Of a DNA stretch of 64,000 bases, positions 11,881-26,748 are shown one piece after another (position 1 is the stretch's first letter; every line of letters starts with the position of its first letter). The position numbers and the translations under genes were made by a program. This stretch comes from Pseudarthrobacter sp. GA104 (lineage in GTDB: Bacteria; Actinomycetota; Actinomycetes; Actinomycetales; Micrococcaceae): assembly GCF_009741265.1 (NCBI RefSeq), contig NZ_WOWL01000001.1, positions 1,240,001 through 1,304,000 on the forward strand, written 5' to 3'. The notes beneath the pieces were generated by a model, which was given only the letters and a program-made list of their open reading frames with translations, did no database searches and was not told where the DNA came from.

Positions 11881-13616
11881 GCCATTTCCTCCACGCTCAG
11901 CTGGGATTCAACGATTTCCTGGTAGGTGGGCGAGGTTTCCAGGAGTTCCTCATGTGTTCCACGGTCAACGATCCGCCCGTTGTCCAGCACCAGGATCTGG
12001 TCGGCCTCGGTAATGGTGGAGATCCGCTGGGCCACGATGATTACCGTGGCATCCGAGGTGGTGCGTTTGAGGGCGGCACGGAGCCGGGCGTCCGTGGCAA
12101 CATCCAGGGCGGAGAAGGAATCGTCGAAGAGGTACACCCGGGGTTTGGTGACGAGTGCCCTGGCGATGCACAGGCGCTGGCGCTGGCCGCCGGAGACGTT
12201 GGTGCCGCCCTGGGCGATGCGCGAGCCGAGCCCGTTCTTCTTGGCGCGGACAAACTCCTCGCCCTGCGCCACGCCCAGGGCCTCCCACAGTTCCTGGTCC
12301 GTGGCGTCGGTCTTTCCGAACCGCAGGTTGTGCCCGATGGTGCCGGAGAAGAGGTAGGGCCGCTGGGGCACCAGGGCAACGCGTTTGGTGATCTCCGCCC
12401 GGTCCATTCTGTCCACGGGAACACCGTCCAGCAGCACCTCCCCTTCCACAGGGTCGTAGAGCCGCGGCAGGAGGGACAGGAGCGAGGTTTTGCCGGCCCC
12501 GGTGGAACCGATAATGGCGAGGGTCTGCCCGGGACGCGCCGTGAAGCTGATGTTGCTCAGCACGGGCGATTCAGCGCCCGGGTAGGCGAAGGTGACGTTC
12601 CGGTACTCGACGACGCCGCTCAGCATGGCGGGCGCCTCCGGACGTTCCGGATCGTGGATGGAGGGTTCGACGTCGAGCACTTCACCGATGCGGTCCGCGC
12701 ATACGGAGGCGCGCGGAATCATCATCGCCATGAAGGTGCCCATCATGACGGCCATCAGGATCTGGAGCAGGTACTGCAGGAAGGCGGTGAGGGCGCCCAC
12801 CTGCATCTCGCCGGAGTCCACCCGCTGCCCGCCGAACCACAGCACGGCGGCGGTGGACAGGTGCAGGATCATGCTGATGGCGGGGAACATCAGGACAAAC
12901 AGGGAACCGATCTTCAGCGAGACGTCCGTCAGTTCCTTATTGGCCTCGCCGAAGCGCCCGGTTTCATAGGGTTCGCGCACAAAGGCCCGGACAACCCGGA
13001 TGCCAATGATCTGTTCCCGCAGCACGGCGTTGATGCGGTCGATTTTCTTCTGCATGGACCGGAACAGCGGAATGAGCCGGACCACCAGGTAGCCCACCAC
13101 CACGGTCAGGAGGGGCACGGAAACCCACACGAGCCAGGACAGGTTGAGGTCCTCGCGCAGCGCCATGATGATGCCGCCCACGCACATGATGGGGGTGGCC
13201 ACCATGAAGTTCAGTCCCATCAGGACGAGCATCTGGACCTGCTGGACATCGTTGGTCCCGCGGGTGATGAGCGTGGGGGCACCAAAGGCGTTGACGTCCC
13301 TGGCCGAGAAACTGGTGACCTTGCGGAACACGCCGCGCCGGAGGTCGCGGCCTATGGCCATGGCGATTTTGGACCCAAAGTAGACACCGGCGATGGCGGT
13401 GCCCACCTGGACGAAGGCCACCAGCAGCATCACGGCGCCGGTGCGCCAGATGAAGTCCGTGTCCCCGCGGGAAACCCCTTCGTCAATGATCTGGGCGTTC
13501 AGGCTGGGCAGGTACAGCGCCGCCATGGTGGACGCCAGCTGAAACACAATGACGGCCACAATGTACGGCATGTACGGCCTGGAAAACCGTCGTATCAGGG
13601 TCAGGAGCATGCCCAC
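11877..13616 (-). CDS. ABC exporter half-transporter, degenerate NBD
   Basis: The 579-residue protein has six membrane helices (~15-310) and an ABC domain with Walker A K376 (GSTGAGKTS) and a canonical signature VSGGQRQRL. In Walker B (YLFDDSFSALD) the catalytic glutamate is replaced by Asp499, and this is the usual mark of the non-hydrolysing subunit of heterodimeric exporters. It is first in a three-gene operon (this gene, the catalytic half, the thioesterase), each joined by a 4-nt overlap. The gene has no linked regulator, and no ligand can be inferred. Confidence 0.92.
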   Translation of the reverse strand: MGMLLTLIRRFSRPYMPYIVAVIVFQLASTMAALYLPSLNAQIIDEGVSRGDTDFIWRTGAVMLLVAFVQVGTAIAGVYFGSKIAMAIGRDLRRGVFRKVTSFSARDVNAFGAPTLITRGTNDVQQVQMLVLMGLNFMVATPIMCVGGIIMALREDLNLSWLVWVSVPLLTVVVGYLVVRLIPLFRSMQKKIDRINAVLREQIIGIRVVRAFVREPYETGRFGEANKELTDVSLKIGSLFVLMFPAISMILHLSTAAVLWFGGQRVDSGEMQVGALTAFLQYLLQILMAVMMGTFMAMMIPRASVCADRIGEVLDVEPSIHDPERPEAPAMLSGVVEYRNVTFAYPGAESPVLSNISFTARPGQTLAIIGSTGAGKTSLLSLLPRLYDPVEGEVLLDGVPVDRMDRAEITKRVALVPQRPYLFSGTIGHNLRFGKTDATDQELWEALGVAQGEEFVRAKKNGLGSRIAQGGTNVSGGQRQRLCIARALVTKPRVYLFDDSFSALDVATDARLRAALKRTTSDATVIIVAQRISTITEADQILVLDNGRIVDRGTHEELLETSPTYQEIVESQLSVEEMA

Positions 13617-13772
13617 GGGTCCTTAGGATGGGTTCGAAGAATGGTTCGGAAAAGCACGAGGCTTAAGTAGTAGCAGCCGGGGCTGACATCCTTGGCTTTC
13701 CCACTCTACGAAACTCCTCCCCGCGGTGAAACAGGCCCCGCAAAAGATCATCCGTGGGGAGTACTGCCTGCA

Positions 13773-15392
13773 TTACCTGCCCGCCGGGGCGGGCTCCGCC
13801 GTCGTGCTTTCCTGCTCCCGCGCCTGCTCCGGCGCCGGCTGGATGTCCACGGTCCGCCGCAGCGGCTTTTCCTTGATGAACAGCACGGACACCAGGGCGA
13901 CGACGGCCACGGCGGCTGAAATCAGGAACACTTCCGCGGTGGCGTCACCGTAGGCGGCCCGCATGATGTCACGAACGGGTTCCGGCATGTGCGCCAGGTC
14001 CATGCTGGAGCCCGCTGCGCCGCCCTGGACGGGGATGCCGGCCGCCGCCAGTCCCCGGGTGGCCAGTTCGCTGACCCTGTTGGCCAGGATGGCGCCCAGG
14101 ACGGAGACGCCAATGGCACCGCCCACGGACCGGAAGAACGCCACGGAGGCGCTGGCCGTTCCAATGTCCGCAGCGCGGACCGTGTTCTGCACTGCCAGCA
14201 CGAGGTTTTGCATCAGCATGCCCAGGCCAAGGCCCAGCACCGCGGTGAAGATTCCGGCGTGCCAGAGCTCCGTGGTGTGGTCCATGGTGCCTGCCAGCCC
14301 CAGCCCGCCGATCAGGAAGACGGATCCCGCGATCAGGTAGCCCTTCCACTTTCCGGTGCGGCTGATCAGGAGTCCGGAAGCCACTGAACCCGCCAGGTTG
14401 CCCGCGATCATGGGCAAGGTAAGGAGTCCGGCCTCCGTGGGGGTGGCGCCGCGGGCCACTTGGAAGTACTGCCCCAGGAAGGTTGAGGAGCCGAACATCG
14501 CGATACCCACGGCTACGGAGGCGAGGATGGCAAGGGCCGTGGTGCGTTCGGAGATGATCTTGAGCGGGATGATCGGCTGCTCCACCTTGGATTCCACCAG
14601 GACCAGCAGCGCCAGCAGGAGGATTCCGCCGCCGACCATGAGGGCGGACTCCCAGGAGATCCAGTCGTAGTACGCGGGGTTGCCGGCGAAGGAGACCCAG
14701 ATCAGCAGCAGGCTTACCCCGGAGGTGAGCAGGACGGAACCGAGCCAGTCGATCTTGGCGGGCCGGCGGACGTGGCTGATCTTGAGGGTGACCTGCAGGA
14801 GGATCAGGGCGACGACGGCGAGCGGCACGCACACGAAGAAGGTCCAGCGCCAGCCCAGCGGGCTGTCCACGATGAAACCGCCCAGCAACGGTCCCCCGGC
14901 GGTGCCCACTGCCATGACCGCGCCCATGTAACCGGAGTATTTCCCGCGGTTCCGCGGCGGGATCATGGTGCCGATGATGGCCTGGGCCAATGCCGTCAGA
15001 CCGCCCATGGCTACGCCCTGGATGACCCGCGCACCCAGCAGCAGCGGGATGGTTTCGGAGAGGCCTGCCATGACGGAACCTGCAACGAAGATGATGATGC
15101 TGAGCTGGACCAGGAGCTTCTTGTTGAAGAGGTCAGCCAGCTTGCCCCAGATGGGCGTGGTGGCGGCGTTGGCCAGCAGCGCTGCGGTGATCACCCAGGC
15201 GAAGTCGGTCTGGGTTCCGTGCAGGTCGGACATGATGGTCGGCAGGGCGTTGGCCACGATCGTGCTGCTGAGAATCGCCGTGAAGAAGGCGGCGAGGAGG
15301 CCGGTGAGCGCTTCCATGATCTGGCGGTGGGACATTTCGGGCGGTGCAGCGGGTGCACTCAACGTGGTGACCCGGGCGGCTGTGGTTGCCAT
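13773..15392 (-). CDS. MFS multidrug exporter, DHA2 (14-TM, EmrB-like)
   Basis: The 539-residue protein begins at ATG 15392 and has about 14 hydrophobic helices. Helix 1 (SSTIVANALPTI) carries the DHA2-type drug-exporter motif. Motif A-like GKLADLFNKK lies between helices 2 and 3 and GGPLLGGFI is the antiporter motif C. The open frame runs upstream through marR in another reading frame, but that part has no membrane character and is not coding. The gene lies 10 bp after marR on the same strand and should be de-repressed when MarR binds a ligand. Confidence 0.92.
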   Translation of the reverse strand: MATTAARVTTLSAPAAPPEMSHRQIMEALTGLLAAFFTAILSSTIVANALPTIMSDLHGTQTDFAWVITAALLANAATTPIWGKLADLFNKKLLVQLSIIIFVAGSVMAGLSETIPLLLGARVIQGVAMGGLTALAQAIIGTMIPPRNRGKYSGYMGAVMAVGTAGGPLLGGFIVDSPLGWRWTFFVCVPLAVVALILLQVTLKISHVRRPAKIDWLGSVLLTSGVSLLLIWVSFAGNPAYYDWISWESALMVGGGILLLALLVLVESKVEQPIIPLKIISERTTALAILASVAVGIAMFGSSTFLGQYFQVARGATPTEAGLLTLPMIAGNLAGSVASGLLISRTGKWKGYLIAGSVFLIGGLGLAGTMDHTTELWHAGIFTAVLGLGLGMLMQNLVLAVQNTVRAADIGTASASVAFFRSVGGAIGVSVLGAILANRVSELATRGLAAAGIPVQGGAAGSSMDLAHMPEPVRDIMRAAYGDATAEVFLISAAVAVVALVSVLFIKEKPLRRTVDIQPAPEQAREQESTTAEPAPAGR

Positions 15393-15402
15393 AGGTTTGC
15401 TC

Positions 15403-15873
15403 CTAGGGGGTGGTGATGGTGCCGGCCGCCGTTGCCCGGGCTGATTTCTTGAGTGATTCGGTGAGTTTGTGCAGGGTTTTCGCCGTGTTGCCGGCGTCCT
15501 CCTCGCTCCAGTCCCGCAGGTAGTCCTGCAGGGCTGCCGTCCGCTGCTCCTCGATGCTCCGGAGCCTGTCCGCTCCCAGGGGCGTGAGGGCAACCAACTG
15601 TGCCCGTCCGTCGTCGGGGTCCTGCCTGCGGACCACCAGGCCGTGCTCCTCCAGGTCCGCGATGTGGCGGCTGAGGACCGGCGCGCTGACTCCCAGCCGC
15701 TCGGCCAGGCTCGTGGCGCGCGACTCCCCCTCCCCCACGAACCGGAGGACGCCCTGGAGTGCGACTCCGGTCTCCTGCCCGCGGATTGCGGCGGTGGCGA
15801 TGCAACGCACCGCGCGCTGGAGATCGAAGATCTGGTAGACGAGATCGGCCGCCGTATCCGGTGCAACTGCCAT
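15403..15873 (-). CDS. MarR-family transcriptional regulator
   Basis: The 156-residue protein has a winged-helix core: recognition segment TSLAERLGVSAPVLSRHIAD (~57-76) and wing VVRRQDPDDGRA (~85-97). MarR proteins repress efflux genes and release DNA when bound by small molecules. ATG 15873 sits 11 nt after AAGGAG; a GTG 12 nt upstream abuts that site and is less likely. The gene leads a marR-MFS operon. A perfect 11-bp inverted repeat (15900-15935) covers its promoter and is the probable self-regulatory operator. Confidence 0.92.
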   Translation of the reverse strand: MAVAPDTAADLVYQIFDLQRAVRCIATAAIRGQETGVALQGVLRFVGEGESRATSLAERLGVSAPVLSRHIADLEEHGLVVRRQDPDDGRAQLVALTPLGADRLRSIEEQRTAALQDYLRDWSEEDAGNTAKTLHKLTESLKKSARATAAGTITTP

Positions 15874-15899
15874 TGCTACAGACACTCCTTACTTGTTTG

Positions 15900-15935
15900 C
15901 CTGAAGCAACTATATACCCATTTGGTTGCTTCAGG
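15900..15935. promoter_or_regulatory. MarR operator: perfect inverted repeat
   Basis: CCTGAAGCAAC (15900-15910) and GTTGCTTCAGG (15925-15935) are exact reverse complements separated by 14 bp. On the minus strand a plausible -10 (TATAGT) falls inside the spacer, so a bound dimer would block the marR-MFS promoter. Confidence 0.75.
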
Positions 15936-15965
15936 AAACTAAAGGGCGGATAGTGGGAAAACGAA

Positions 15966-16001
15966 GGGCCCCGGCTCCTTGCGGAGGCCGGGACCCTTTT
16001 T
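15966..16001. terminator. Rho-independent terminator after the ThDP enzyme gene
   Basis: A GC-rich stem (left arm 15966-15978, right arm 15983-15996, one bulge and one mismatch) is followed by TTTTT on the plus strand and a T-rich stretch on the minus strand. It fits a terminator for the minus-strand gene ending at 16025 and insulates it from marR. Confidence 0.7.
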
Positions 16002-16024
16002 CTGCGTATTCGGTTGAGTGGGCC

Positions 16025-17734
16025 CTATGCGGGGAGATGGGTTGGGGCGAACATCTTCAGGAGCGTTTCCACCACGACGACGTTGGGCCCGTCACCGGCG
16101 AAGCCCGCCTTGAGCGCCTCCCCCACGTCCTCCGGCGCCACTTTTGTGGCCGGCACGCCGAAGGCTTCGGCGAGTTTGACGAAGTCCGGGCGGGCCAGCT
16201 CGGTGGCGGTTGCCTTGCCGAAGGCGCCCACCATGTATTCGCGCAGGATGCCGTAGCCGCCGTCGTCCACGATCAGCCAGGTGACCGGCACGTTGTGCTG
16301 CTTCGCCGTGGCCAGTTCCGCGATGGAGTACATGGACGAGCCGTCGCCGGAGACGGCGAGCACCCGGCCCGGCTTGCCGACTGTTTCCAGCCCCACGGCG
16401 GCGCCGATCGCCGCCGGGAAGCCGTAGCCCAGGCCGCCGGCGCCTTGGGCGGAGTGGAACTGGCCCTCCCGGGCGTCCCAGCAGCTCCAGCCCCAGTAGG
16501 CGGCGATGGTCATGTCCCAGAAGGTCTGCATGTCCGCCGGGACTGCATCCCGGATGTCGGCCATGAACTTCAGCTCCTTGGCAAGGTCCTGGGATTCCAG
16601 GCGCGCCCGGACTTTCGCCAGGGATTCCTTGACCAGGTCCTCCGGAGAGGTGCCGTGCCAGTTGGGCCTGGCATGCGCAGGCTCCACCTCCAGCGCCTCG
16701 TCCAGGGCAGCCAGTGCCTGTCCCGCGTCCGCGCGGATGCCCAGCCCGGGCCGGTTGGACTCCAGGACCCGGGGTTCGGCGTCGATCTGGATGATCCTGC
16801 CGCGCGGCTCGAAAGTGAAGTAGTTGGACGTGACCTCGCCCAGCGAGGAACCGATCACCACCAGCACGTCGGCGTCCTCGAGCAGATCGGTCATGTAGCG
16901 GTCCTCGATCCAGGACTGCAGCGAGAGCTCGTGGTTCCAGGGGAATGCGCCGTTGCCGCCCGGGGTGCAGATCACGGGGGCACGCAGTTTCTCCGCAATG
17001 GAGAGCAGCGACTTCTCAGCCCGGCCCCGGCGGGTACCGCCGCCGGCAATGATGGCCGGGCGCTCGGCGGCCTGCAGCCATTTCACCGCTTCGCGGACCA
17101 GCTCCACCCGCGGCGGATTGTCCGCCGCTTCGGCGAGCGCGTCCTCCACCGGCGGCACCATGATCGGATCGAGCAGGACGTTCTGCGGAATCTCGAGCCA
17201 CACCGGCCCCTGGGGCGAGGAAATTGCCTCGGTCCAGGCGTCCTGGATGGCCGACGGGATGCCGGACGCGTGCTGGATCAGCCGCTGGCTCTTCGTCACG
17301 TTCGCGGCCGAGGCCTTCTGGTCATCAAGCTGGTGCAGCATGCCCTTGCGCCGGGCGCCCAGGCCTTCCAGCGGAATCTGGCTCGCCACCACCACCATCG
17401 GCACCCCTGTGGCATAGGCCTCCTGCAGCCCGGCCAGCGACGTCAGCGCGCCCGGGCCGGTGGAGAGGAACAGGACGCCCACTTCACCGGTGGCCCGCGA
17501 GTACCCGTCCGCAGCGAAGGCGCTGTTGTTCTCCACCCGAGAGGAAACGAACTGCAGGTTGCCCCGGCCCATCGCATCAAACAGTCCCAGCGCATGCTGC
17601 CCGGGGATGCCAAACACCGTTTTCGCGCCCAGGGCTTCCAGTGTCTCGACGACGAGGTCCCCGCCGTTGCGGGCACCCGTAACCGGACCCTTCGCTGCCG
17701 GCACCGCCGCCTTGCCCGGATCGTGCTCGACCAT
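16025..17734 (-). CDS. ThDP-dependent decarboxylase/ALS-like enzyme, candidate 2-ketoarginine decarboxylase
   Basis: The 569-residue protein has the three-domain acetolactate-synthase fold. Glu68 (SSRVENNSAFAADGYSR) is the cofactor-activating glutamate. The ThDP/Mg motif begins GDG (463-465), but the usual NN pair is replaced by D490-D491 (VDDGGYG). It is 5 bp after a ureohydrolase gene. In Pseudomonas, AruI (a ThDP decarboxylase of this family) acts on 2-ketoarginine upstream of the guanidinobutyrase GbuA, and this gene pair would fit that route. The substrate is inferred only from family and context; another 2-oxo acid is possible. Confidence 0.75.
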   Translation of the reverse strand: MVEHDPGKAAVPAAKGPVTGARNGGDLVVETLEALGAKTVFGIPGQHALGLFDAMGRGNLQFVSSRVENNSAFAADGYSRATGEVGVLFLSTGPGALTSLAGLQEAYATGVPMVVVASQIPLEGLGARRKGMLHQLDDQKASAANVTKSQRLIQHASGIPSAIQDAWTEAISSPQGPVWLEIPQNVLLDPIMVPPVEDALAEAADNPPRVELVREAVKWLQAAERPAIIAGGGTRRGRAEKSLLSIAEKLRAPVICTPGGNGAFPWNHELSLQSWIEDRYMTDLLEDADVLVVIGSSLGEVTSNYFTFEPRGRIIQIDAEPRVLESNRPGLGIRADAGQALAALDEALEVEPAHARPNWHGTSPEDLVKESLAKVRARLESQDLAKELKFMADIRDAVPADMQTFWDMTIAAYWGWSCWDAREGQFHSAQGAGGLGYGFPAAIGAAVGLETVGKPGRVLAVSGDGSSMYSIAELATAKQHNVPVTWLIVDDGGYGILREYMVGAFGKATATELARPDFVKLAEAFGVPATKVAPEDVGEALKAGFAGDGPNVVVVETLLKMFAPTHLPA

Positions 17735-17739
17735 CCCCG

Positions 17740-18804
17740 CTACTCCTTGCCCGCCGGTGCGAAGCCTGCCGGCCGGCGGACCTCCTGGCCGAGCGCCTGG
17801 GCGGCGTAACCCGTCGCTGAGCCGAAACGGTCGCCTTCCACGGCGTTGTCTGCCATCAGCGTGACAAGCTCGTAGGCAACGTGGCTGGCCGCGACGCCGG
17901 TGATCTCGGCGTGGTCGTAGGCCGGGGCCACCTCCACGACGTCGGCGCCCACCAGGTTCATCCCGCGGAAGCCGCGGATGATTTCCAGCAGTTCCCTGCT
18001 GGTGATGCCGCCGGCTTCGGGCGTGCCGGTGCCGGGAGCATGGGCCGGGTCCAGGACGTCGATGTCCACCGAGATGTACAACGGGCGGTTGCCGATCCGG
18101 TCCCGGACCTTGGCCACGGTTTCCAGGACGCCCTGGTAGTAGACGTCCGCGGAGGTGACGATGCCGAACCCGAACCGGTGGTCGTCGTCGAGATCCTTCT
18201 TGCCGTACAGCGGGCCGCGGGTGCCGATGTGGCTGATGGCTTCCGTGTCCAGGATGCCCTCCTCGACGGCCCGGCGGAACGGGGTGCCGTGGGTGTATTC
18301 GGCGCCGAAGTAGGTGTCCCAGGTGTCCAGGTGCGCGTCGAAGTGCAGCATCGCCACCGGTCCCCCGGCCCGCTCAGCCGCCGCGCGGAGGAGCGGCAGG
18401 GCAATCGTATGGTCACCGCCGAGGGTCACCAGCCTGCTGCCTCCGGCCGTGAGGTCCAAAGCGTTCTGCTGGATGGTCTCGATGGCTTCATTGATGTTGA
18501 ACGGGTTGACAGCCATGTCCCCGGCGTCGGCAACCTGGATGTTCTCGAAGGGGCTCACGTCCCACGCCGGGTTGTATGGGCGGAGCAGGCGGCTGGCTTC
18601 CCGGACGTGATTGGCGCCGAAGCGGGCTCCCGGACGGTAGGACACGCCCGAATCGAACGGCACGCCCACCACGGTGACGTCGGCCTTGGCCACCTGGTCC
18701 AGCCGCGGCAGCCGCGCATAGGTGGCAGCACCCGCATAGCGAGGGATGCGGGATGAATCAATGGGGCCTAGGTTGCCGTTGGCTTCGATGCGCAGCTCTT
18801 CCAC
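17740..18804 (-). CDS. Agmatinase-family ureohydrolase, possibly guanidinobutyrase
   Basis: The 354-residue enzyme would hydrolyse a guanidino group to release urea. All manganese ligands of the ureohydrolase fold are present: H132 (LGGDH), D156, H158 and D160 (FDAHLD), D247 and D249 (VDIDVLDP). GTGTPEAGG follows. Agmatinases and guanidinobutyrases share these residues, so substrate cannot be told from motifs. It is the first gene of a two-gene operon with the ThDP enzyme, near an XRE-cupin regulator and a symporter, which favours catabolism of an imported guanidino acid over polyamine synthesis. Confidence 0.88.
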
Positions 18805-18906
18805 TGGAGGCCTCTCCTTCGAGGAGTTGAGGGATTGTTGTGACTGCCATCATACACCCGGGTTTTCCTATGTGCACCGCATGTTTACAGAGCCTCACCC
18901 GTCTGA

Positions 18907-18954
18907 GTAGCGCTAAGTGTCGTTTTGAACGCTCAAAACGACACTTAGCGCTAC
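18907..18954. repeat. Long perfect palindromic repeat (22-bp arms)
   Basis: Arms 18907-18928 and 18933-18954 are exact reverse complements around a 4-nt loop. No T tract follows on either strand, so it is not a classic terminator. Its core recurs at 46087-46110 with 23 of 24 bases identical, pointing to a dispersed palindromic element. Confidence 0.85.
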
Positions 18955-18966
18955 CTAGTTGTGGGG

Positions 18967-19542
18967 TTAACGGCTGGCGGCGGGAACCAGGACCCAGAGC
19001 ACCTCAACCGGCTTGTCCGTGGGGTTGATCCAGGTGTGCGGCTCACGGCCCGGGAAGGTGACCGTGTCTCCGGGGCCGAGGTCGTATTCCTCGTTGGTGA
19101 GGATCAGGCGGATCCTCCCCTTGATCACATGGAGAACGTCAACGTCGCAGTCCACGGCATAGAGCTCGGACTCACCGCGCCCGTGCGGTTCAATGCAGGC
19201 CTGGATGATCTGGATGCGCCGCTCCGAGCGGGCGGTGAGGAGCCGCTCCACGATGCCTTCGCCGCCGAGGGAAATCCTTGGCCCTTCGTTGCGTTTGGTC
19301 AGGTGTGTTTCCGGGGCCGCGAACAGGTCGCCGATCGAAATCGACAGCACCTGGCATAGTGTCACGAGCGAGGCGACGGACGGTGACGTCAGGTCCCGCT
19401 CAACCCGGCTGAGGAATCCCTTGGTCAGGCCCGTAGCGTCGGCCACCTGCTCTATGGTGAGCCGCTGGGACTGCCGGGCCGCACGGATCCTGGAACCGAT
19501 GGCTACCGGAACGTTGCTCGGCTCAACTGGCAGTGCCTTCAT
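18967..19542 (-). CDS. XRE-family regulator with C-terminal cupin
   Basis: The 191-residue protein has an N-terminal XRE helix-turn-helix (~15-70; LTIEQVADATGLTKGFLSRV) and a C-terminal cupin (~105-188; DCDVDVLHVIKGRIRLIL, PGDTVTFPGREPHTW). This is the PuuR-like architecture used to sense small metabolites such as amines and amino acids. It is divergent from the symporter gene across a 261-bp region and lies near the ureohydrolase gene on the same strand. It likely controls both, with a ligand from the pathway. Confidence 0.9.
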   Translation of the reverse strand: MKALPVEPSNVPVAIGSRIRAARQSQRLTIEQVADATGLTKGFLSRVERDLTSPSVASLVTLCQVLSISIGDLFAAPETHLTKRNEGPRISLGGEGIVERLLTARSERRIQIIQACIEPHGRGESELYAVDCDVDVLHVIKGRIRLILTNEEYDLGPGDTVTFPGREPHTWINPTDKPVEVLWVLVPAASR

Positions 19543-19696
19543 CTACGAACCTTTCATGGCCGGCCGTCCGGCTCCGCTCTGGAGCAATCCTAATGGCCAG
19601 CCCTGCCTGTGACGCGCCCCTTGCGTGCGCGCCGCGGCGACGCCAGACCTCCCTTGACTGTTACCACCATCACAGCCTAACTTGAGACAACCATTG

Positions 19697-19711
19697 TTGC
19701 CTATAGGGCAA
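19697..19711. promoter_or_regulatory. Small inverted repeat between XRE regulator and symporter
   Basis: TTGCC and GGCAA flank TATAG in the middle of the divergent intergenic region, next to CAACCATTGTTG, another small dyad. It may be the XRE-cupin operator. Support is weak because the arms are only 5 bp. Confidence 0.35.
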
Positions 19712-19803
19712 TAGCCCGGAACCTCCCCCCATCTCCGTAGCAGCTGCCCGGCTCTCCGGTGCCCGGACTGCAGCCCGCTGCCAACACGCTCCAAGGAGCC
19801 AAC

Positions 19804-21321
19804 ATGGACCTAAGTGTCATCAACATCGCCATCGTGGTGGTGTACCTGCTCGCGATGCTGGCCTTCGGCTGGTGGGGCAAGTCCCGCACCAGGAACAACA
19901 GCGACTTCCTGGTTGCCGGCCGCCGCCTCGGCCCCTTCCTCTATACAGGCACCATGGCCGCCGTCGTCCTGGGCGGGGCCTCAACGGTGGGCGGTGTAGG
20001 CCTCGGCTACAAGTTCGGCATCTCCGGCATGTGGCTGGTAGTGGCTATCGGCGCCGGCGTCCTGCTGCTGAGCCTGCTCTTCGCCGGGACCATCCAGAAG
20101 CTGAAGATCTACACGGTCTCCCAGATGCTCACCCTGCGCTACGGCAGCAGGGCCACCGAAGCCTCGGGCATCGTGATGCTCGCTTACACGCTGATGCTGT
20201 GCGCCACATCCACCGGCGCCTATGCCACCATTTTCGTGGTGCTCTTCGACTGGGACCGGGCTATGGCCATCGCCGTCGGCGGCGCCATCGTGCTGGTCTA
20301 TTCCACAATCGGCGGCATGTGGTCCATCACCCTGGCGGACCAGGTGCAGTTCATTATCAAGACCGTAGGCATCTTCTTCCTGATGTTGCCGTTCACCCTG
20401 AATGCTGCGGGCGGCTTTGAAGGCATCCGCAGCCGTGTGGATGAAAGCTTCTTCCAGATTGACGGCATCGGCGTCCAGACCATCATCACTTACTTCGTCG
20501 TCTACACTCTGGGCCTGCTGATCGGCCAGGACATCTGGCAGCGGGTCTTCACGGCGAAGACCCCCACGGTGGCCCGGTGGGGCGGCGCCACTGCAGGCAT
20601 CTACTGCATCCTTTATGGTGTTGCCGGCGCGTTGATCGGCATGGCCGCAAGCGTGGCCCTCTCCGACATTGAGATCGCCGCGAAGGACGATGTCTATGCC
20701 GAGGTGGCACAGACCCTGCTGCCGGTAGGCATCGGCGGACTTGTCCTGGCGGCAGCCGTGGCCGCAATGATGTCAACGGCTTCCGGCGCCCTCATTGCCG
20801 CTGCAACCGTGGCCCGCGCAGATGTCCTGCCTTTCGTCGCCAGCTGGTTCGGCAAGACCATCAACACCGAAGACACGGACAACCCGGAGCACGACGTCAA
20901 AGCGAACCGCACGTGGGTCCTCGCCCTTGGCATCGTGGCCATCGTCATCGCCATCATCACCAAGGACGTGGTGGCAGCCCTGACCATCGCCTACGACATC
21001 CTGGTGGGCGGCCTCCTCGTGGCAATCCTGGGCGGCCTGGTCTGGAAGCGCGGCACTGGCCTGGCCGCCGCGGCCTCCATGGCAGTAGGGTCCGTGGTGA
21101 CCCTGGGCACCATGATCATCCTTGAAGTCAACGCCAAGGCGCCGCTTGACGGCATCTACGCCAACGAGCCCATCTACTACGGCCTCCTGGCCTCAGCGGT
21201 GGTCTACATTGCGGTGTCCCTGCTGACCAGGCCCACGGACCCCCAGGTCATGCGCAACTGGCAGCGCCGGGTGGCCGGGCAGGACAGCGAAGAGGCGCCG
21301 GTTCCCACCGCCGTCCGCTAG
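19804..21321 (+). CDS. Sodium:solute symporter (SSS family)
   Basis: The 505-residue protein has about 13 membrane helices and the SSS features: N-terminal SDFLVAGRRLGPF, an early GGASTVGG helix break and the long GVGLGYKFGISGMW segment. It would import an organic solute with sodium. Start ATG 19804 follows AAGGAG by 6 nt; the frame is open further upstream but lacks a site. It is divergent from the XRE-cupin regulator and convergent with the next gene across a strong hairpin. A guanidino or amino acid substrate is inferred from neighbours only. Confidence 0.92.
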   Translation: MDLSVINIAIVVVYLLAMLAFGWWGKSRTRNNSDFLVAGRRLGPFLYTGTMAAVVLGGASTVGGVGLGYKFGISGMWLVVAIGAGVLLLSLLFAGTIQKLKIYTVSQMLTLRYGSRATEASGIVMLAYTLMLCATSTGAYATIFVVLFDWDRAMAIAVGGAIVLVYSTIGGMWSITLADQVQFIIKTVGIFFLMLPFTLNAAGGFEGIRSRVDESFFQIDGIGVQTIITYFVVYTLGLLIGQDIWQRVFTAKTPTVARWGGATAGIYCILYGVAGALIGMAASVALSDIEIAAKDDVYAEVAQTLLPVGIGGLVLAAAVAAMMSTASGALIAAATVARADVLPFVASWFGKTINTEDTDNPEHDVKANRTWVLALGIVAIVIAIITKDVVAALTIAYDILVGGLLVAILGGLVWKRGTGLAAAASMAVGSVVTLGTMIILEVNAKAPLDGIYANEPIYYGLLASAVVYIAVSLLTRPTDPQVMRNWQRRVAGQDSEEAPVPTAVR

Positions 21322-21373
21322 GTCCGGCGGGCCGGCGGCCAGGCCCGCTCCGGGGCGCCGGCACCAGGCAAAC

Positions 21374-21426
21374 GACGACGGCGGCACCTCCTGTTGCGTT
21401 CCAGCGAAGGAGGTGCCGCCGTCGTC
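21374..21426. terminator. Strong stem-loop between convergent genes
   Basis: Perfect 19-bp arms (21374-21392 and 21408-21426) flank a 15-nt loop between the symporter stop (21321) and the minus-strand stop (21431). No long T tract follows, so it may act as a bidirectional stem-type terminator. Confidence 0.7.
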
Positions 21427-21430
21427 AGTC

Positions 21431-21658
21431 CTACTCGGCTTCGCGGACCTCGTCGGGGTCCTCCAGGGGGACCACCCGGTCCTCTGCGTCGATCACGACA
21501 GGAGGCACCTGGACCACAGGTTCCTCCTCGTCCAGGAGATCGTCCTCGGTGTCCCAGTCGTCCTCATCTACCGGTGCATCCTCGGCGTAGTCGTAGGCGG
21601 GATCCGCCTCCACGGCATCAAGGTGCGGCATGTCCGGGTGCTGTCCGGTGGTGCCCAT
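21431..21658 (-). CDS. Small, very acidic hypothetical protein
   Basis: The 75-residue product is rich in Asp and Glu (for example AEDAPVDEDDWDTEDDLLDEEE) and should be disordered. ATG 21658 follows a GGAG-containing site (ACGGAGGTTCAATC), which decides the start over a longer frame. I do not recognise the family. It lies between the symporter and the ferritin-VIT gene. Codon pattern and the ribosome site make it a probable real gene. Confidence 0.6.
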   Translation of the reverse strand: MGTTGQHPDMPHLDAVEADPAYDYAEDAPVDEDDWDTEDDLLDEEEPVVQVPPVVIDAEDRVVPLEDPDEVREAE

Positions 21659-21839
21659 GATTGAACCTCCGTTTGTTCGCCTGACGTGCTCTTTCAGTGA
21701 GGGCGCGGGCCGCGCCACACTTTCATCACAGCACCGCCCGGCATACGGGTCAATAGCGCCTGAAACCGGCTGGCGGGACCCGCGGAAGCGGCGCCGAATT
21801 TAAGGCGGACCGAAATGTCCGAGGGAGGATTACCTGCCA

Positions 21840-21855
21840 AAAATCCGCGGATTTT
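21840..21855. promoter_or_regulatory. 16-bp perfect palindrome upstream of ferritin-VIT gene
   Basis: AAAATCCGCGGATTTT is exactly self-complementary and lies 60 bp before the likely GTG start, inside the divergent intergenic region. It could be an operator for the iron gene. A further dyad, ATGGGGC/GCCCCAT, lies at ~21876-21898. Confidence 0.45.
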
Positions 21856-21914
21856 CGCAGTAAGCTGGCACTGCAATGGGGCCGAACCATGCCCCATCCA
21901 GCCCAGGAGTGTCC

Positions 21915-23087
21915 GTGTCTCCGCACGCCCAGAACAACCGAAACGCCGCGCCCCGGCCGTCGTCCCTCCCGGCCGCACCGGAAGGATCCGGGCCGAACCG
22001 GCAGTCCCTGCCGTCGCCGTCGGACATTAAACGATGGCGGCAATACCTCGCGGACGAGCGCGCCGAGGCCGCTGTTTACCGGGATCTGGCGCAGAGCCGC
22101 CAGGGTGAGGAACGTGAAATCCTCCTGGCCCTGGCCGAGGCCGAAGGCCGCCATGAAGCACACTGGCTGGGCCTGCTCGGGGACCGCGCGGGCAAGCCCC
22201 GGCGGGCATCCCTCCGCAGCCGGCTGCTGGGTTTCCTGGCCCGGCACTTCGGCTCTGTGTTCGTGCTGGCGCTGGCCCAGCGCGCCGAAGGCCGCTCCCC
22301 GTACGCCAAGGACCCCAACGCCACGGATGCCATGGCGGCCGATGAGCAGATCCACGAGGAAGTGGTCCGCGGACTGGCAACACGGGGGCGCAACCGCCTG
22401 GCCGGAACCTTCCGGGCAGCGGTGTTCGGCGCCAATGACGGCCTGGTCAGCAACCTGTCCCTGGTGATGGGCATGGCCGCTTCCGGCGTGGCCAGCAGTG
22501 TGGTGCTGCTCAGCGGAATCGCGGGGCTGCTGGCCGGCGCCATGTCCATGGGCGCCGGTGAGTTCATTTCCGTCCGTTCCCAGCGTGAACTGCTGGCGGC
22601 AACCCGGCCCACGCAGGTCACGCTGGTAGCCGCTCCCAAACTGGACCTCGAGCACAACGAACTGCTCCTGGTGTACCTGGCCAGGGGCATGACCCAGGAA
22701 GCCGCGGAACACCGGGTGGCCGAGCGCACCGGCCTGCTGCCCTGTGACTGCGATCCCAGCTTGTCGCTGCAGCCGGAACTGCCCGACGTCGATGACCAGC
22801 ATGAGGCGGTGGGCACCGCGTGGGGCGCGGCCCTGTCCAGCTTCTGCTTCTTCGCGTCCGGCGCCATCGTACCCATCCTGCCGTTTGTGGTCGGCCTGAC
22901 AGGTGTGCCGGCGCTGGTGGTTGCGGGCGGCCTGGTGGGCGTGGCCCTGCTGGTCACCGGCGCCACCGTTGGGCTGCTGTCCGGCACGTCACCCCTGACG
23001 CGCGGGCTGCGCCAGCTTGCCATTGGGCTGGGCGCCGCGGCAGTCACCTACCTGTTGGGGCTGGTCTTCGGCACCGTGGTGGGTTAG
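21915..23087 (+). CDS. Membrane ferritin-like/VIT1 fusion (MbfA-type iron transporter)
   Basis: The ~390-residue protein joins an N-terminal ferritin-like four-helix segment (~25-150, with EAAVYRDLAQ, EAEGRHEAHW and DEQIHEEVV carrying the Glu/His ligands) to a C-terminal VIT1/CCC1 membrane domain (AAVFGANDGLVSNLSLVMG; SMGAGEFISVRSQ). MbfA proteins in rhizobia have this order and export iron under iron or peroxide stress. I chose GTG 21915 because AGGAG lies 5 nt before it; an in-frame ATG occurs at 21876. A cytosolic-side cysteine pair (PCDC) is present between helices. Confidence 0.85.
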   Translation: MSPHAQNNRNAAPRPSSLPAAPEGSGPNRQSLPSPSDIKRWRQYLADERAEAAVYRDLAQSRQGEEREILLALAEAEGRHEAHWLGLLGDRAGKPRRASLRSRLLGFLARHFGSVFVLALAQRAEGRSPYAKDPNATDAMAADEQIHEEVVRGLATRGRNRLAGTFRAAVFGANDGLVSNLSLVMGMAASGVASSVVLLSGIAGLLAGAMSMGAGEFISVRSQRELLAATRPTQVTLVAAPKLDLEHNELLLVYLARGMTQEAAEHRVAERTGLLPCDCDPSLSLQPELPDVDDQHEAVGTAWGAALSSFCFFASGAIVPILPFVVGLTGVPALVVAGGLVGVALLVTGATVGLLSGTSPLTRGLRQLAIGLGAAAVTYLLGLVFGTVVG

Positions 23088-23114
23088 CGGTGGCATGCTA
23101 ATGGGCGCAGCCTA

Positions 23115-24059
23115 GTGGAGGACCGCCGCGAGGGGTCCCGCCATGCGCGGGCCAGGGTCCGCCGAGGCGCACGCGGGATAGCCAGGCTCCTGGTCATCGC
23201 CGCACTGTCCGCAGTGGCAGTTTTTGGTGCGGCCCTGGCAGTCAGCGATCCGCGCTTCAAGGAACTGCTGGATGTCCGCATCGGCCCGGGAACCGGCCAA
23301 CCAGGCGGACAGTCCGGGGAGTCCAGCGGCCAGCAGGACACCCACCCCACGGGACATGCCGGCCAGGCACCCCCGGCTGAGGGCCGGACGAAGACGCCGC
23401 CTGCGGGATTCGAGGAGTCGGACGCCCCGCTGGCCGCCGCCAGCCCGCCCCCGCCGGGCGGCGATTCCTACCGCTTCCTCGCAGTCAACGGGGACGGCAG
23501 CCCCGTGGGGTATTCCCCCTGCAGGCCGCTGCACTATGTGGTCAATGACGAGCTGGCACCGGCCGGCGCGCAGCAGCTCATCATGGAGGCCATCACCACC
23601 ATCTCGGCCGCCACGGGCATCCAGTTCATCTATGACGGAACCACCCGGGAACAGCCATCCCCGCAACGGCAGCCCTACCAGCCGGAGGCCTACGGCGAGC
23701 GCTGGGCACCGCTGCTCATCGCCTGGACAACGCCGGACGCGGCCCCGCAGCTGAAGGGCAAGGTGATCGGCACCGGAGGCAGCACCCACTTCAGTTACGA
23801 CGACGGCCCCAAGGCCTTTGTGACCGGCGGCCTGGATCTGGACTCACCGCAGATCGCCAATGAGCTCCTTAACCCGGACGGCCACCTCTATGCCAGGGCC
23901 GTGATCCTCCACGAGCTCAGCCATGTCATGGGACTTGACCATGTGGAGGACCCCACGCAACTGATGTACCCGGAAATCGGCACCCCCGAGGGGTTGTCCG
24001 CCGGAGACCTCAACGGGCTCTTTGAGCTGGGCAAGGCCCAGTGCCGCAAGGACCTCTGA
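23115..24059 (+). CDS. Membrane-anchored or secreted metzincin-type metalloprotease
   Basis: The 314-residue protein starts at GTG 23115 with a basic N-terminus and one hydrophobic helix (~25-45), then a Pro/Gly-rich linker (~55-115). The catalytic domain has the zinc motif HELSHVMGLDH (H266, E267, H270, H276) and a Met-turn-like LMYP, as in matrixins. It is likely exported and anchored, or released after cleavage. The substrate is unknown. The gene follows the ferritin-VIT gene by 27 bp but no functional link is evident. Confidence 0.82.
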   Translation: MEDRREGSRHARARVRRGARGIARLLVIAALSAVAVFGAALAVSDPRFKELLDVRIGPGTGQPGGQSGESSGQQDTHPTGHAGQAPPAEGRTKTPPAGFEESDAPLAAASPPPPGGDSYRFLAVNGDGSPVGYSPCRPLHYVVNDELAPAGAQQLIMEAITTISAATGIQFIYDGTTREQPSPQRQPYQPEAYGERWAPLLIAWTTPDAAPQLKGKVIGTGGSTHFSYDDGPKAFVTGGLDLDSPQIANELLNPDGHLYARAVILHELSHVMGLDHVEDPTQLMYPEIGTPEGLSAGDLNGLFELGKAQCRKDL

Positions 24060-24087
24060 CCAGCCGGACCCGCATGCCGGCCGGGCC

Positions 24088-25245
24088 TCAGGCGGCCTGC
24101 CCGGGCCCCAGCTGGCTTCGCAGCACCTCCACCGCATCCTGCACCGAGTCCACCAGGAAGATGTGGTCTTCCATCACCCGGCCGGCAGCCAGGCTGCGGA
24201 GCATGGGCCATGCGGGGTACTGGTGCTCCCAGTGGTGCCTGCCCACCAGCACCATGGGCGTGACCTTTTCCCGCGCGCCGTAGTAGTTCTCGCAGGCGTC
24301 CTGGAAGATTTCCTGCACCGTGCCCGCGGCCCCGGGAAGGAAGACGATGCCTCCCTTGCACAGCTCCAGCAGGATGGCTTCTCTGATGGCGTTGGCAAAG
24401 TATTTGGCGATGTGCGTGGCGAAGTAGTTGGGCGGTTCGTGCCCGTAGAACCACGTGGGGATGCCGAGCGACGGCGTTCCGCCGGGAAAGCGTTCGACGA
24501 CGGCGGCGGCGGCACGAGCCCACGCGGACACCGAGGGACGGAACCCGGGGACGGAGGCGAGCGTGTCCAGCGCCGCCTGCACCTCGGCGTCGGACGCCTC
24601 GCTGAGGTACGCTCCCATGTTCGCCGCCTCCATGGCCCCCGGCCCTCCGCCTGTGGCAACGACGCGACCGTCCTGTGCCAGCAGCCGGCCCAGCAGGGCG
24701 GCCTGGGCAAAACCGGTGCTGCCACGCTGCGCGGCGTGTCCGCCCATCACCCCCACCATGGCGCGGTCCTGCCAGGGCCCCGTCCTGGCCAGCTCGTCCA
24801 GGGCGTCGCCGATGGCATGGTCATGAAGTGCCGAAGCAAGGGTGGCGTCCAGCCGGTGCCGCTGGCCATCATGGATGCTCCATTGATAGATCCGGGCATC
24901 CGGCAGCTGCTCATACGGGGAGTGCGGCAGCCCGGAGTAAAGCTCCTGGGGCGTATAGAGGGTGGCCCGGTAGGGGTTGAACGGTACCGCCTCAAGCCGT
25001 GGAAAGATCAGCGCACCCCGTTGCCGGAGAAGGTCCTCCGTGCCGTCATCGAACGTGCAGCCGAGGAAGATGGCACCCTCCACGTGCATGCCTTCCAGCG
25101 CTGCGGTCCTCCCCCGAAGGTCCAGGGACTGTGCATGCCAGCCGTGCATGTCCAGGGCCCCTGCGCTGACCAGCCGGTCGAAGCTTTCCAGGTCCTGGAC
25201 TTCGAGGTTGTGCGGGTGGGGGCCCAGGTTTCCGGAGAGGTTCAC
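24088..25245 (-). CDS. LOG-family (TIGR00730) Rossmann protein, long form
   Basis: The 385-residue protein contains the LOG/lysine-decarboxylase-like fold in its second half. VATGGGPGAMEAANMGA (~195-212) and LPGAAGTVQEIF (~303-314, a variant of PGGxGTxxE) form the nucleotide site. LOG proteins release cytokinin-like bases from nucleoside monophosphates, but many bacterial members act on other nucleotides. The first ~150 residues are outside the core; I see no named domain there. The start ATG is preceded by a purine-rich site. Confidence 0.8.
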   Translation of the reverse strand: MNLSGNLGPHPHNLEVQDLESFDRLVSAGALDMHGWHAQSLDLRGRTAALEGMHVEGAIFLGCTFDDGTEDLLRQRGALIFPRLEAVPFNPYRATLYTPQELYSGLPHSPYEQLPDARIYQWSIHDGQRHRLDATLASALHDHAIGDALDELARTGPWQDRAMVGVMGGHAAQRGSTGFAQAALLGRLLAQDGRVVATGGGPGAMEAANMGAYLSEASDAEVQAALDTLASVPGFRPSVSAWARAAAAVVERFPGGTPSLGIPTWFYGHEPPNYFATHIAKYFANAIREAILLELCKGGIVFLPGAAGTVQEIFQDACENYYGAREKVTPMVLVGRHHWEHQYPAWPMLRSLAAGRVMEDHIFLVDSVQDAVEVLRSQLGPGQAA

Positions 25246-25265
25246 GGTCTAAACCTAAAGCAATA

Positions 25266-25318
25266 CGGGGTCAGGTTCCGCCTCTCCGGAGCACCGGAAT
25301 GGGCTGAATCTGACCCCG
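25266..25318. terminator. Hairpin after the sugar transporter gene
   Basis: CGGGGTCAG (from 25266) pairs with CTGACCCCG (to 25318), and an inner TTCCG/CGGAA dyad extends the structure. It lies between the transporter stop (25333) and the LOG gene start. The same GGGGTCA/TGACCCC core occurs in the hairpin at 53323-53383. Confidence 0.6.
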
Positions 25319-25332
25319 CGCTGGTGAAGGTG

Positions 25333-26748
25333 CTAGGCGGGAACCCGGACGGGTTCGCCGTGGCGGAAGTGCGCTTCGAGATCCTCGAGGGAATGGCCCT
25401 TTGTCTCCGGGACGAACTTGCTGACGAACATCAGGGATGCGAGGTTCACCAGGACGAACAGGCCGAAGGTTCCGGTGGAACCAAGCGCCTCGACCACGAT
25501 CGGGAACAGGAAGGAGATGGCGGCGTTGACCGTCCACAGCGCGAACACCGCGATTCCCATGGCGAAGCCGCGGATGGCCAGCGGGAACATTTCCGAGAGG
25601 AGCAGCCACACGCAGGTGCCGATGAAGCACTGCACAAACGCTACGAACAGCATCATGGCGGCGAGGATGGTGTAGCTGGCGAGGTCCGACTGGGGCAGGA
25701 GGAAAACCACAGCGAGCAGGGCCTGGGAGCCCACCACCCCGGAGAAGCCGACGATCAGCATTCTCCGCCGGCCAATAAAACCGAGCAGCCAGATTCCAAG
25801 GATGGTCATCAGCACCGAGGTTACGCCGACGCCGATGGTGGCCACCAGGGATGCGCTGACGCCGAGCCCGCTCTTTTCGAGGATGGTGGGGGCGTAGTAG
25901 TTCACGGTGTTGATGCCCGTGGCCTGCTGCACCACGGCGAGGCCAATGCCGATCCAGAGAAGGCGGCGCATCCAGGGGTTGTCCCGCAGGTCCCGCCAGG
26001 CGTGGCCGCGTTCGTCCTTGGCCGTCTTTGCAGCCTCGGCAATTTCCTGGAACTCGCTGGCGGCTTCTTCAGGGCTTCGGCTGAGGTTGAGGACGCGGCG
26101 GCTGTCCTCGAGGCGGCCGCGGATGGCATACCAGCGGGGCGACTCGGGCAGCATCAGCATTCCCGCGAGCAGCGCTAGGGCGGGAAGGGACGCGATGCCC
26201 AGCATGGTGCGCCAGACTTCGGTGTCGTGGATCAGGGCATCGAGCAGGGCGTTGATGGCGAACGCCAGCATCTGTCCGGTGACGATCATGAGTTCGTTGA
26301 TGGTGACCATGCGGCCGCGCAGGTGGGCCGGTGCCATTTCGGCCAGGTACAGCGGGCAGGTGACGGCCGCCGCGCCGACCCCCAGGCCCAGCAGGATGCG
26401 CGCCGCGATCATGAACGGCACGTTGGGGGCGATGGCACAGCCAATGGCGCCGAACAGGAACAGCAGGGCGCAGACCAGCAGGGAACCCCTGCGGCCAAGC
26501 TTGTCCGCCATGCGGCCGCCGGTGAGCGCACCCACCGCGGCGCCGGGGAACAGCAGGGCGCTGACCACCGTGGCTTCCTCGACGGCGGTCATGTTCAGGG
26601 AGTCGTTCATGTACAGCAGGGCGCCGGAGATGACGCCGGTGTCGTAGCCGAAGAGCAGGCCGCCCAGGGTGGAGATGACAGTGAGCCGGGCGAGATAGCC
26701 GCGGCGCCGGTCGCCGGGGGCGGTCAGCGATTGTTTCTGCAACAGCAT
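25333..26748 (-). CDS. MFS sugar porter, candidate inositol/cyclitol transporter
   Basis: The 471-residue, 12-helix protein has sugar-porter marks: [14 protein letters not shown] in helix 1, DKLGRRG after helix 2, PESPRW in the central loop, QQATGINTVNYY in helix 7 and PETKG at the end. These are shared by IolT-type inositol importers. The promoter carries a LacI-type palindrome (26814-26829), and an IolR-like box lies upstream (26855-26864). Those sites and the divergent gntR-iolB genes make a cyclitol substrate likely, but another sugar cannot be excluded. Confidence 0.88.
   Translation of the reverse strand: MLLQKQSLTAPGDRRRGYLARLTVISTLGGLLFGYDTGVISGALLYMNDSLNMTAVEEATVVSALLFPGAAVGALTGGRMADKLGRRGSLLVCALLFLFGAIGCAIAPNVPFMIAARILLGLGVGAAAVTCPLYLAEMAPAHLRGRMVTINELMIVTGQMLAFAINALLDALIHDTEVWRTMLGIASLPALALLAGMLMLPESPRWYAIRGRLEDSRRVLNLSRSPEEAASEFQEIAEAAKTAKDERGHAWRDLRDNPWMRRLLWIGIGLAVVQQATGINTVNYYAPTILEKSGLGVSASLVATIGVGVTSVLMTILGIWLLGFIGRRRMLIVGFSGVVGSQALLAVVFLLPQSDLASYTILAAMMLFVAFVQCFIGTCVWLLLSEMFPLAIRGFAMGIAVFALWTVNAAISFLFPIVVEALGSTGTFGLFVLVNLASLMFVSKFVPETKGHSLEDLEAHFRHGEPVRVPA

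Follow-up and report, generated by a model that had tools for sequence, protein, structure and literature searches.

What does a ureohydrolase gene do next to genes for a thiamine diphosphate (ThDP)-dependent enzyme, an XRE-cupin regulator and a sodium symporter in a soil actinobacterium? These four genes lie together in a 64,000-nucleotide stretch (hereafter the window) of the 4.8-Mb genome of Pseudarthrobacter sp. GA104 (contig NZ_WOWL01000001.1, positions 1,240,001 to 1,304,000), as the original prediction, made from the letters of the window, had stated. All four open reading frames (ORFs) were found, and their Pfam domains all exceed the gathering scores (Table 1). The ureohydrolase and ThDP genes are on the same strand with 5 nt between them, and the regulator and symporter genes form a divergent pair. 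Most parts of this cassette are of known kinds, and the ThDP enzyme belongs to a branch without assigned activity. The gene set, which is conserved in soil actinobacteria, most likely serves to convert guanidino acids derived from arginine to γ-aminobutyrate (GABA), as a source of nitrogen and carbon. More precisely, and with a probability of roughly 55%, we propose that the cluster is the counterpart of the gbuA locus of Pseudomonas aeruginosa: the ThDP enzyme would decarboxylate 2-ketoarginine, and the ureohydrolase would make GABA and urea from 4-guanidinobutyrate.

Table 1. Features of the cassette and its intergenic DNA (positions in the window)
Feature	Position	Strand	Remarks
ThDP-dependent enzyme, 569 aa	16025..17734	-	Pfam TPP_enzyme N/M/C; putative decarboxylase acting on 2-ketoarginine, a guanidino 2-oxo acid
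Ureohydrolase, 354 aa, GTG start	17740..18804	-	Pfam Arginase, 317 bits; putative guanidinobutyrase-type guanidino-acid hydrolase
Promoter-like hexamers 5' of the ureohydrolase start	18849..18876	-	Consensus match only
Perfect inverted repeat, 22-nt arms, 4-nt loop	18907..18954	.	Between regulator and ureohydrolase
XRE-cupin regulator, 191 aa	18967..19542	-	Pfam HTH_3 and Cupin_2; PuuR model 59 bits (cut-off 211)
Divergent intergenic region, regulator/symporter	19543..19803	.	Conserved patches
Sodium:solute symporter	19759..21321	+	Pfam SSF; ATG start probably at 19804

The ureohydrolase is most plausibly a guanidino-acid hydrolase of the guanidinobutyrase type. GbuA ranked first among its solved relatives in a phmmer search (3nio, 278 bits). 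We aligned 170 rows, corresponding to 142 distinct sequences; the window gene is present twice, two proteobacterial GbuA-type proteins are included, and four rows had an internal stop sign deleted. The GbuA metal ligands H129, D152, H154, D156, D243 and D245, which are strictly conserved in all 170 rows, are thus present in the window protein. The position of GbuA Arg72 is occupied by Arg in the window protein and in 169 of the 170 rows (141 of the distinct sequences), the sole exception being a His in a protein with 54% identity (locus L186; loci and genomes are designated L and G followed by a number), and by Ala in both agmatinase references compared. In GbuA, Arg72 caps the neighbouring active site and can contact the substrate carboxylate (PMC9772407). 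Because of the conservation of this residue, we consider with good confidence that the window enzyme is a guanidino-acid hydrolase, and we rejected the agmatinase label. The second ureohydrolase of the genome was also considered, as a candidate arginase, and turned out to be a formimidoylglutamase (TIGR01227, 284 bits for a cut-off of 229).

The guanidinobutyrase of Arthrobacter sp. KUJ 8602, from the same genus group, reportedly has 353 residues and a mass of 37,933 Da, close to the 37,862 Da of the window enzyme, the two being compared by size. Six of the best 80 named loci of the Arthrobacter group (L061-L140, some of which are short contigs) encode a 353-residue ureohydrolase of 37.8-38.0 kDa. 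The KUJ 8602 protein is already known as a Zn2+-guanidinobutyrase/D-arginase (Arakawa 2003, mentioned in PMC11271267).

The ThDP enzyme retains the cofactor-activating Glu in alignments. Its best curated model is PRK08266, an unnamed family (346 bits for a cut-off of 571), and it obtained 322.9 bits with PRK07524/NF005712 (5-guanidino-2-oxopentanoate decarboxylase, cut-off 500). Its relatives in L142, L156 and L183 have similar PRK07524 scores (341.5, 316.6 and 347.8 bits, respectively). In a 37-row tree, built without the decayed copy L159_7 and the ThDP protein of L297, the window enzyme belongs to a clade of 21 actinobacterial rows with a long stem and a support of 100/100. This clade groups with 11 rows that include the PRK07524 proteins, but the joint branch is weakly supported (86/81). 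AruI is the 2-ketoarginine decarboxylase of the arginine transaminase pathway. Compared with it through the PRK07524 model, the window enzyme shares the ThDP domains, the cofactor Glu, an LH(E/Q)-type motif and, in other genomes, a placement beside aldehyde dehydrogenase and guanidinobutyrase genes, but it has its own clade and no adjoining aminotransferase in the window. Since it is below the cut-off and forms a clade of its own, we do not file it as a PRK07524 member but propose that it works like one. Orthology with the ThDP enzyme of the P. aeruginosa gbuA locus was likewise rejected, given ~31% identity and the tree. On balance, we lean towards 2-ketoarginine decarboxylation as its probable activity. 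Among the matches listed, no open-licence paper has a title or abstract opening on a ThDP-ureohydrolase cluster.

The association between the two enzymes was analysed in 394 genomes of the class, which were drawn evenly yet are related, so that Fisher values for these counts are not independent tests. With a threshold of E <= 1e-90, the ThDP gene is present in 48 of them, at 49 places. At 45 of these places it lies directly downstream of a ureohydrolase gene on the same strand, with gaps between -40 and +305 nt, which argues that the pairing is not due to chance. The four exceptions are a second ThDP copy in G197 and three genomes, G106, G358 and G332, in which the two genes are on separate contigs; the ThDP locus of G332 (L156) was inspected over 17 kb. 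For the co-occurrence count, we used 88 ureohydrolase rows, namely all those with at least 71% identity (75 genomes), 12 with 65-69% identity and one of the two G106 rows (64%). The rows of G293, G396, G362, G154, G139 and G423 at 65-66% identity and all lower rows were omitted; none of these six genomes is in the ThDP-gene list. The ThDP gene is found in 46 of the 75 genomes with a close ureohydrolase and, within the genus, in 36 of 37 genomes including that of the window, G033 being devoid of it. All four genes are present in 71 of the best 80 named Arthrobacter-group loci, the regulator, ureohydrolase and ThDP genes in 5 and the ureohydrolase and ThDP genes in 4, with ThDP identities of 89-96%; Pseudarthrobacter and Arthrobacter species are the nearest named relatives. 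The four genes form a long-lived cassette.

Decayed ThDP copies were also observed, in G030 (three frames, included in the 36 genus genomes above) and in L159 (G177), where part of the C-terminal ThDP-binding segment is missing. A 55-kb circular plasmid record of Arthrobacter sp. NicSoilB11 (L181) harbours ThDP, MarR, MFS and ABC genes twice, in mirror image and with identical protein accessions, which may represent an inverted duplication or an assembly artefact.

Similar sets of genes are found in other lineages. The P. aeruginosa locus (L189) encodes, in this order, GbuA, an NTF2-like protein, an NCS1 permease, a symporter, a ThDP enzyme and an FAD oxidoreductase, genes that we take to be PA1416-PA1422. 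Its ureohydrolase is 100% identical to the solved GbuA (3nio) over the aligned part. An RNA-seq table lists gbuA and each of PA1416-PA1420 as decreased upon mutation of mexT (PMC12607905). The window cassette resembles this locus as an actinobacterial counterpart, with a guanidino-acid ureohydrolase (43% identity to GbuA), a ThDP enzyme and a sodium:solute symporter (SSS; 49% identity over 474 residues). The NCS1 permease of L189 also has homologues in other actinobacterial versions of the cassette (68% identity in L143). In contrast, the regulator is of the LysR type in P. aeruginosa and of the XRE-cupin type in the window, the P. aeruginosa ThDP enzyme belongs to another clade, and its NCS1 and FAD genes have no equivalents in the window cluster. 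The latter therefore has three of the four ureohydrolase, ThDP, SSS and NCS1 genes, all of which are present in L143-L146, L150, L154 and L155.

In a Paraburkholderia locus (L187), genes for a ThDP enzyme (64% identity to that of P. aeruginosa), an aldehyde dehydrogenase (Pfam Aldedh) and a GbuA-type ureohydrolase (75% identity to 3nio) are in a row. L291 and L297 harbour ThDP genes closer to PRK07524 (476 bits for L291, below the 500-bit cut-off) beside the ureohydrolase gene, in the same order as in the window, followed by a symporter gene in L297. In the f35 family, an aminobutyraldehyde-dehydrogenase relative is encoded near all five loci with both enzymes (L148, L150, L154, L155 and L158), those of L150 and L155 having been scanned and passing the model, and near two of the seven loci with a ureohydrolase but no ThDP gene (L282 and L285). 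Genes for a carbon-nitrogen hydrolase-type protein, a flavoenzyme, a GABA transaminase above the model cut-off and two proteins like succinate-semialdehyde dehydrogenase, below the cut-off, are close to the L142 cassette. These neighbours are consistent with a series of intermediates leading from a 2-oxo acid through an aldehyde, a guanidino acid and GABA to succinate, and by analogy they point to 2-ketoarginine decarboxylation by the ThDP enzyme. The P. aeruginosa ThDP gene is followed by one for an FAD_binding_4/FAD-oxidase_C protein, to be compared with a 2-hydroxyacid dehydrogenase gene in L156. These dehydrogenase or oxidase neighbours are hints of entry through a 2-hydroxy acid such as argininate.

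We next considered the transporters. Of 17 distant loci with both enzymes, 14 have a symporter gene in the vicinity (the match in L142 is partial), as compared with none of 20 ureohydrolase loci without a window-type ThDP gene (L277-L296). The latter were hand-picked for spread across families; L278 is limited to 9 kb, the ureohydrolase of L289 is the second one in its genome, which has a ThDP gene elsewhere, L291 encodes the other-clade ThDP enzyme, and in L280 and L281 there is a PRK07524-like match ~7 kb away. Over whole genomes with a ureohydrolase of at least 71% identity, the symporter (E <= 1e-90) was detected in 33 of 46 ThDP-positive versus 1 of 29 ThDP-negative genomes. NCS1 permease genes are found at 7 of the 17 loci with both enzymes and at 5 of the other 20. 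Since the symporter tracks the ThDP gene and not the ureohydrolase alone, its cargo is more likely to be the ThDP substrate or a precursor thereof, and NCS1 would more likely carry the ureohydrolase substrate. The proposal that the cluster has its own importer is thus plausible, with the amendment that the symporter appears to serve the ThDP enzyme rather than to bring in the substrate of the ureohydrolase.

As to the source of the 2-oxo acid, the pathway had been predicted to be of the arginine-transaminase type. We abandoned this label because a scan of ten proteins encoded around the cluster (11877-26748) showed no aminotransferase (no search for AruH covered related loci or the remainder of the genome), the ThDP enzyme is below the PRK07524 cut-off, and a flavoenzyme and a carbon-nitrogen hydrolase are encoded elsewhere in the genome. 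That flavoenzyme (G000:C1:938512), whose gene is ~320 kb from the cluster, is 76% identical to the flavoenzyme of L142 and is encoded beside a permease-like stretch, a PucR regulator and the carbon-nitrogen hydrolase. Among solved enzymes it best matches L-AAO/MOG of Pseudomonas sp. AIU 813 (3we0, 812 bits), of which the substrate-binding Asp238 and Trp235 are kept, whereas Cys254, considered the key to the oxidase/monooxygenase balance, is replaced by Ala (residue roles from PMC5832979). With L-Arg, L-AAO/MOG has a kcat of 0.41 s-1 as an oxidase and of 1.6 s-1 as a monooxygenase giving 4-guanidinobutanamide (PMC5832979, Table 2), and Arg is its least efficient substrate among Lys, Orn and Arg (PMC5832979). 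The genome's flavoenzyme may be a lysine enzyme. By enzyme type, the flavoenzyme and hydrolase recall the arginine monooxygenase-4-guanidinobutyramide hydrolase route of an azalomycin producer (PMC5082578), but they are encoded far from the cluster. The flavoenzyme gene is present in 39 of the 46 genomes with both the ureohydrolase and the ThDP gene, and in 16 of the 29 that have the ureohydrolase but no ThDP gene; at the threshold used, 8 of the 48 ThDP genomes are devoid of it. The flavoenzyme and ThDP genes thus do not require each other. An aldehyde dehydrogenase, which it had been suggested to look for outside the cluster, was found: the genome encodes an aminobutyraldehyde dehydrogenase above the model cut-off, adjoining a GabT-like class-III aminotransferase (62% identity to GabT of L142).

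These comparisons show what the genes are, that they and key residues are conserved, and that the genes lie together; from this we infer the substrates, the direction of flow, the regulator ligand and the symporter cargo. 2-Ketoarginine (5-guanidino-2-oxopentanoate) would be formed by the oxidase activity of the flavoenzyme, which is of the basic-amino-acid oxidase/monooxygenase type, or by other deaminating enzymes, or would enter by Na+-dependent import through the symporter. The ThDP enzyme would convert it to 4-guanidinobutyraldehyde, which an aminobutyraldehyde-type dehydrogenase would oxidize to 4-guanidinobutyrate. The ureohydrolase would split urea off the latter, leaving GABA, and would perhaps also act on 3-guanidinopropionate, and a GabT-type aminotransferase and aldehyde dehydrogenases encoded elsewhere in the genome would channel GABA to succinate. 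The XRE-cupin protein probably senses an acid of the pathway. If the flavoenzyme makes both the amide and the 2-oxo acid from arginine, some 2-ketoarginine would be leaked, and the cell would benefit from a decarboxylase; this could explain why the latter is kept. A tentative and rather doubtful extension is that Actinobacteria have a second, AruI-independent 2-ketoarginine decarboxylase, kept because the amide goes to an amidase and the leaked 2-ketoarginine to the ThDP enzyme; the two branches would meet at one guanidinobutyrase, and the symporter would import a guanidino 2-oxo acid or argininate, a candidate nutrient class. The original prediction is thus partly supported. It was largely right on the two enzyme types, in that a guanidino-acid hydrolase, as argued from Arg72, and a ThDP enzyme of the same pathway, as argued from adjacency, probably make up a guanidino route, although the ThDP enzyme does not reach the AruI-type cut-off; its transaminase is unsupported.

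Several observations weigh against the proposed pathway. Two ThDP loci (L152 and L156) have no ureohydrolase gene within 17 kb, a 2-hydroxyacid dehydrogenase gene of the D-2-hydroxyacid type adjoins the window-type ThDP gene in L156, and the two genes are ~480 kb apart in a named Embleya record. The ThDP gene is missing from 29 of the 75 genomes with a close ureohydrolase, and L185, L287 and L288 harbour ureohydrolase and flavoenzyme genes without a window-type ThDP gene. The ThDP enzyme is below the PRK07524 cut-off and scores slightly higher with the unnamed PRK08266. The overall identities of the ureohydrolase to GbuA (42.9%), GpuA (42.3%), PAH (43.1%) and two agmatinases (42.9% and 41.6%) fail to separate these enzymes. 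At position 161, which is Met in GbuA and which we take to be a specificity residue of GbuA and GpuA, the window protein has Tyr, like GpuA (Tyr157). Finally, a monooxygenase and an amidase would together provide 4-guanidinobutyrate with no need for a ThDP enzyme.

This last point underlies an alternative that we consider unlikely, in which an arginine monooxygenase and an amidase feed the guanidinobutyrase, and the ThDP enzyme performs other 2-oxo acid work such as carboligation and shares only regulation with it. The grouping of flavoenzyme, carbon-nitrogen hydrolase and permease-like stretch in the genome, the distribution of the flavoenzyme in genomes with and without the ThDP gene and the top rank of PRK08266 all fit this scheme, but the ThDP genomes devoid of the flavoenzyme, the other-clade ThDP proteins that adjoin guanidino-acid ureohydrolases in other lineages and the aldehyde dehydrogenase neighbours argue against it. 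That the true substrate is another guanidino acid (3-guanidinopropionate, taurocyamine or guanidinoacetate), with the ThDP enzyme acting on its downstream carbon skeleton, appears improbable. The GpuA-like Tyr would agree with it, as would the presence beside the genes, in several lineages, of PucR-type regulators and NCS1 permeases, two families with known roles in the catabolism of purines or ureides; the GABA transaminase and succinate-semialdehyde-dehydrogenase-like proteins near the L142 cassette, the solved GbuA in the P. aeruginosa counterpart and the very low score of the ThDP enzyme with the sulfoacetaldehyde acetyltransferase model (186 for a cut-off of 620) speak against it.

A role of the ureohydrolase as an agmatinase in polyamine synthesis, as implied by automatic annotation, is very improbable. 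The enzyme does pass two NCBIfam agmatinase cut-offs (TIGR01230, 223.5 for 174.3 bits; PRK02190, 311.6 for 302 bits), and its relatives are annotated speB in PLSDB records, but the PRK02190 label discriminates poorly, since true GbuA itself obtains 297 bits, within 5 bits of the cut-off, and Arg72 is replaced by Ala in the agmatinases compared. In addition, human AGMAT, although called an 'agmatinase', hydrolyses guanidino acids (PMC9772407), and Medi2865, a putative relative from Streptomyces annotated as an agmatinase, hydrolysed 4-guanidinobutyrate (PMC5704753). By analogy, the biochemistry of relatives favours guanidino acids as substrates.

Relatives of the XRE-cupin regulator are also encoded near ureohydrolases in L142, L185, L287, L288, L290, L292 and L293. 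The gap between the regulator and ureohydrolase genes varies from at least ~100 to ~7,200 nt in the Arthrobacter group, indicating that the former is not fixed beside the latter, and in L061-L140 this stretch is apparently an insertion-prone spot. An ORF of ~650 codons is found there in L114, L120 and L141, the L141 copy having no Pfam match at 1e-5. In the window, the ureohydrolase-ThDP pair is preceded by a perfect inverted repeat and a promoter-like match (Table 1). The palindrome has the core AAACGACACTT. The genome contains 14 copies of a 20-nt pattern comprising part of one arm and one flanking base, versus none of the reversed control; the palindrome probably represents a terminator-type repeat dispersed among the intergenic regions of this group. 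We looked for a long operator palindrome in the regulator/symporter intergenic region and found none.

Beyond the cassette, a MarR-like ORF (15403-15885) overlaps an ORF for a DHA2-type efflux transporter in the 13773-15885 segment of the window, and a MarR-MFS pair is also found 3' of the cassette on the NicSoilB11 record. On the other side, the product of 21876-23087 has a VIT1 domain at residues 179-395, and its first ~180 residues have no Pfam match at the threshold used.

Altogether, the gene set is ordinary in kind but probably misannotated, and it includes one enzyme clade without assigned activity. A polyamine function is improbable for the enzyme of these actinobacteria that NCBI models call agmatinase and, if this is right, the polyamine models would be corrected. 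The proposed pathway, if true, would give a function to the ThDP clade as well as to symporter and NCS1 families common to several phyla. 4-Guanidinobutyrate is used as a polyketide starter by some actinobacteria (PMC5082578). In Arthrobacter and other actinobacteria, the cassette would provide a route to arginine-derived GABA and urea.

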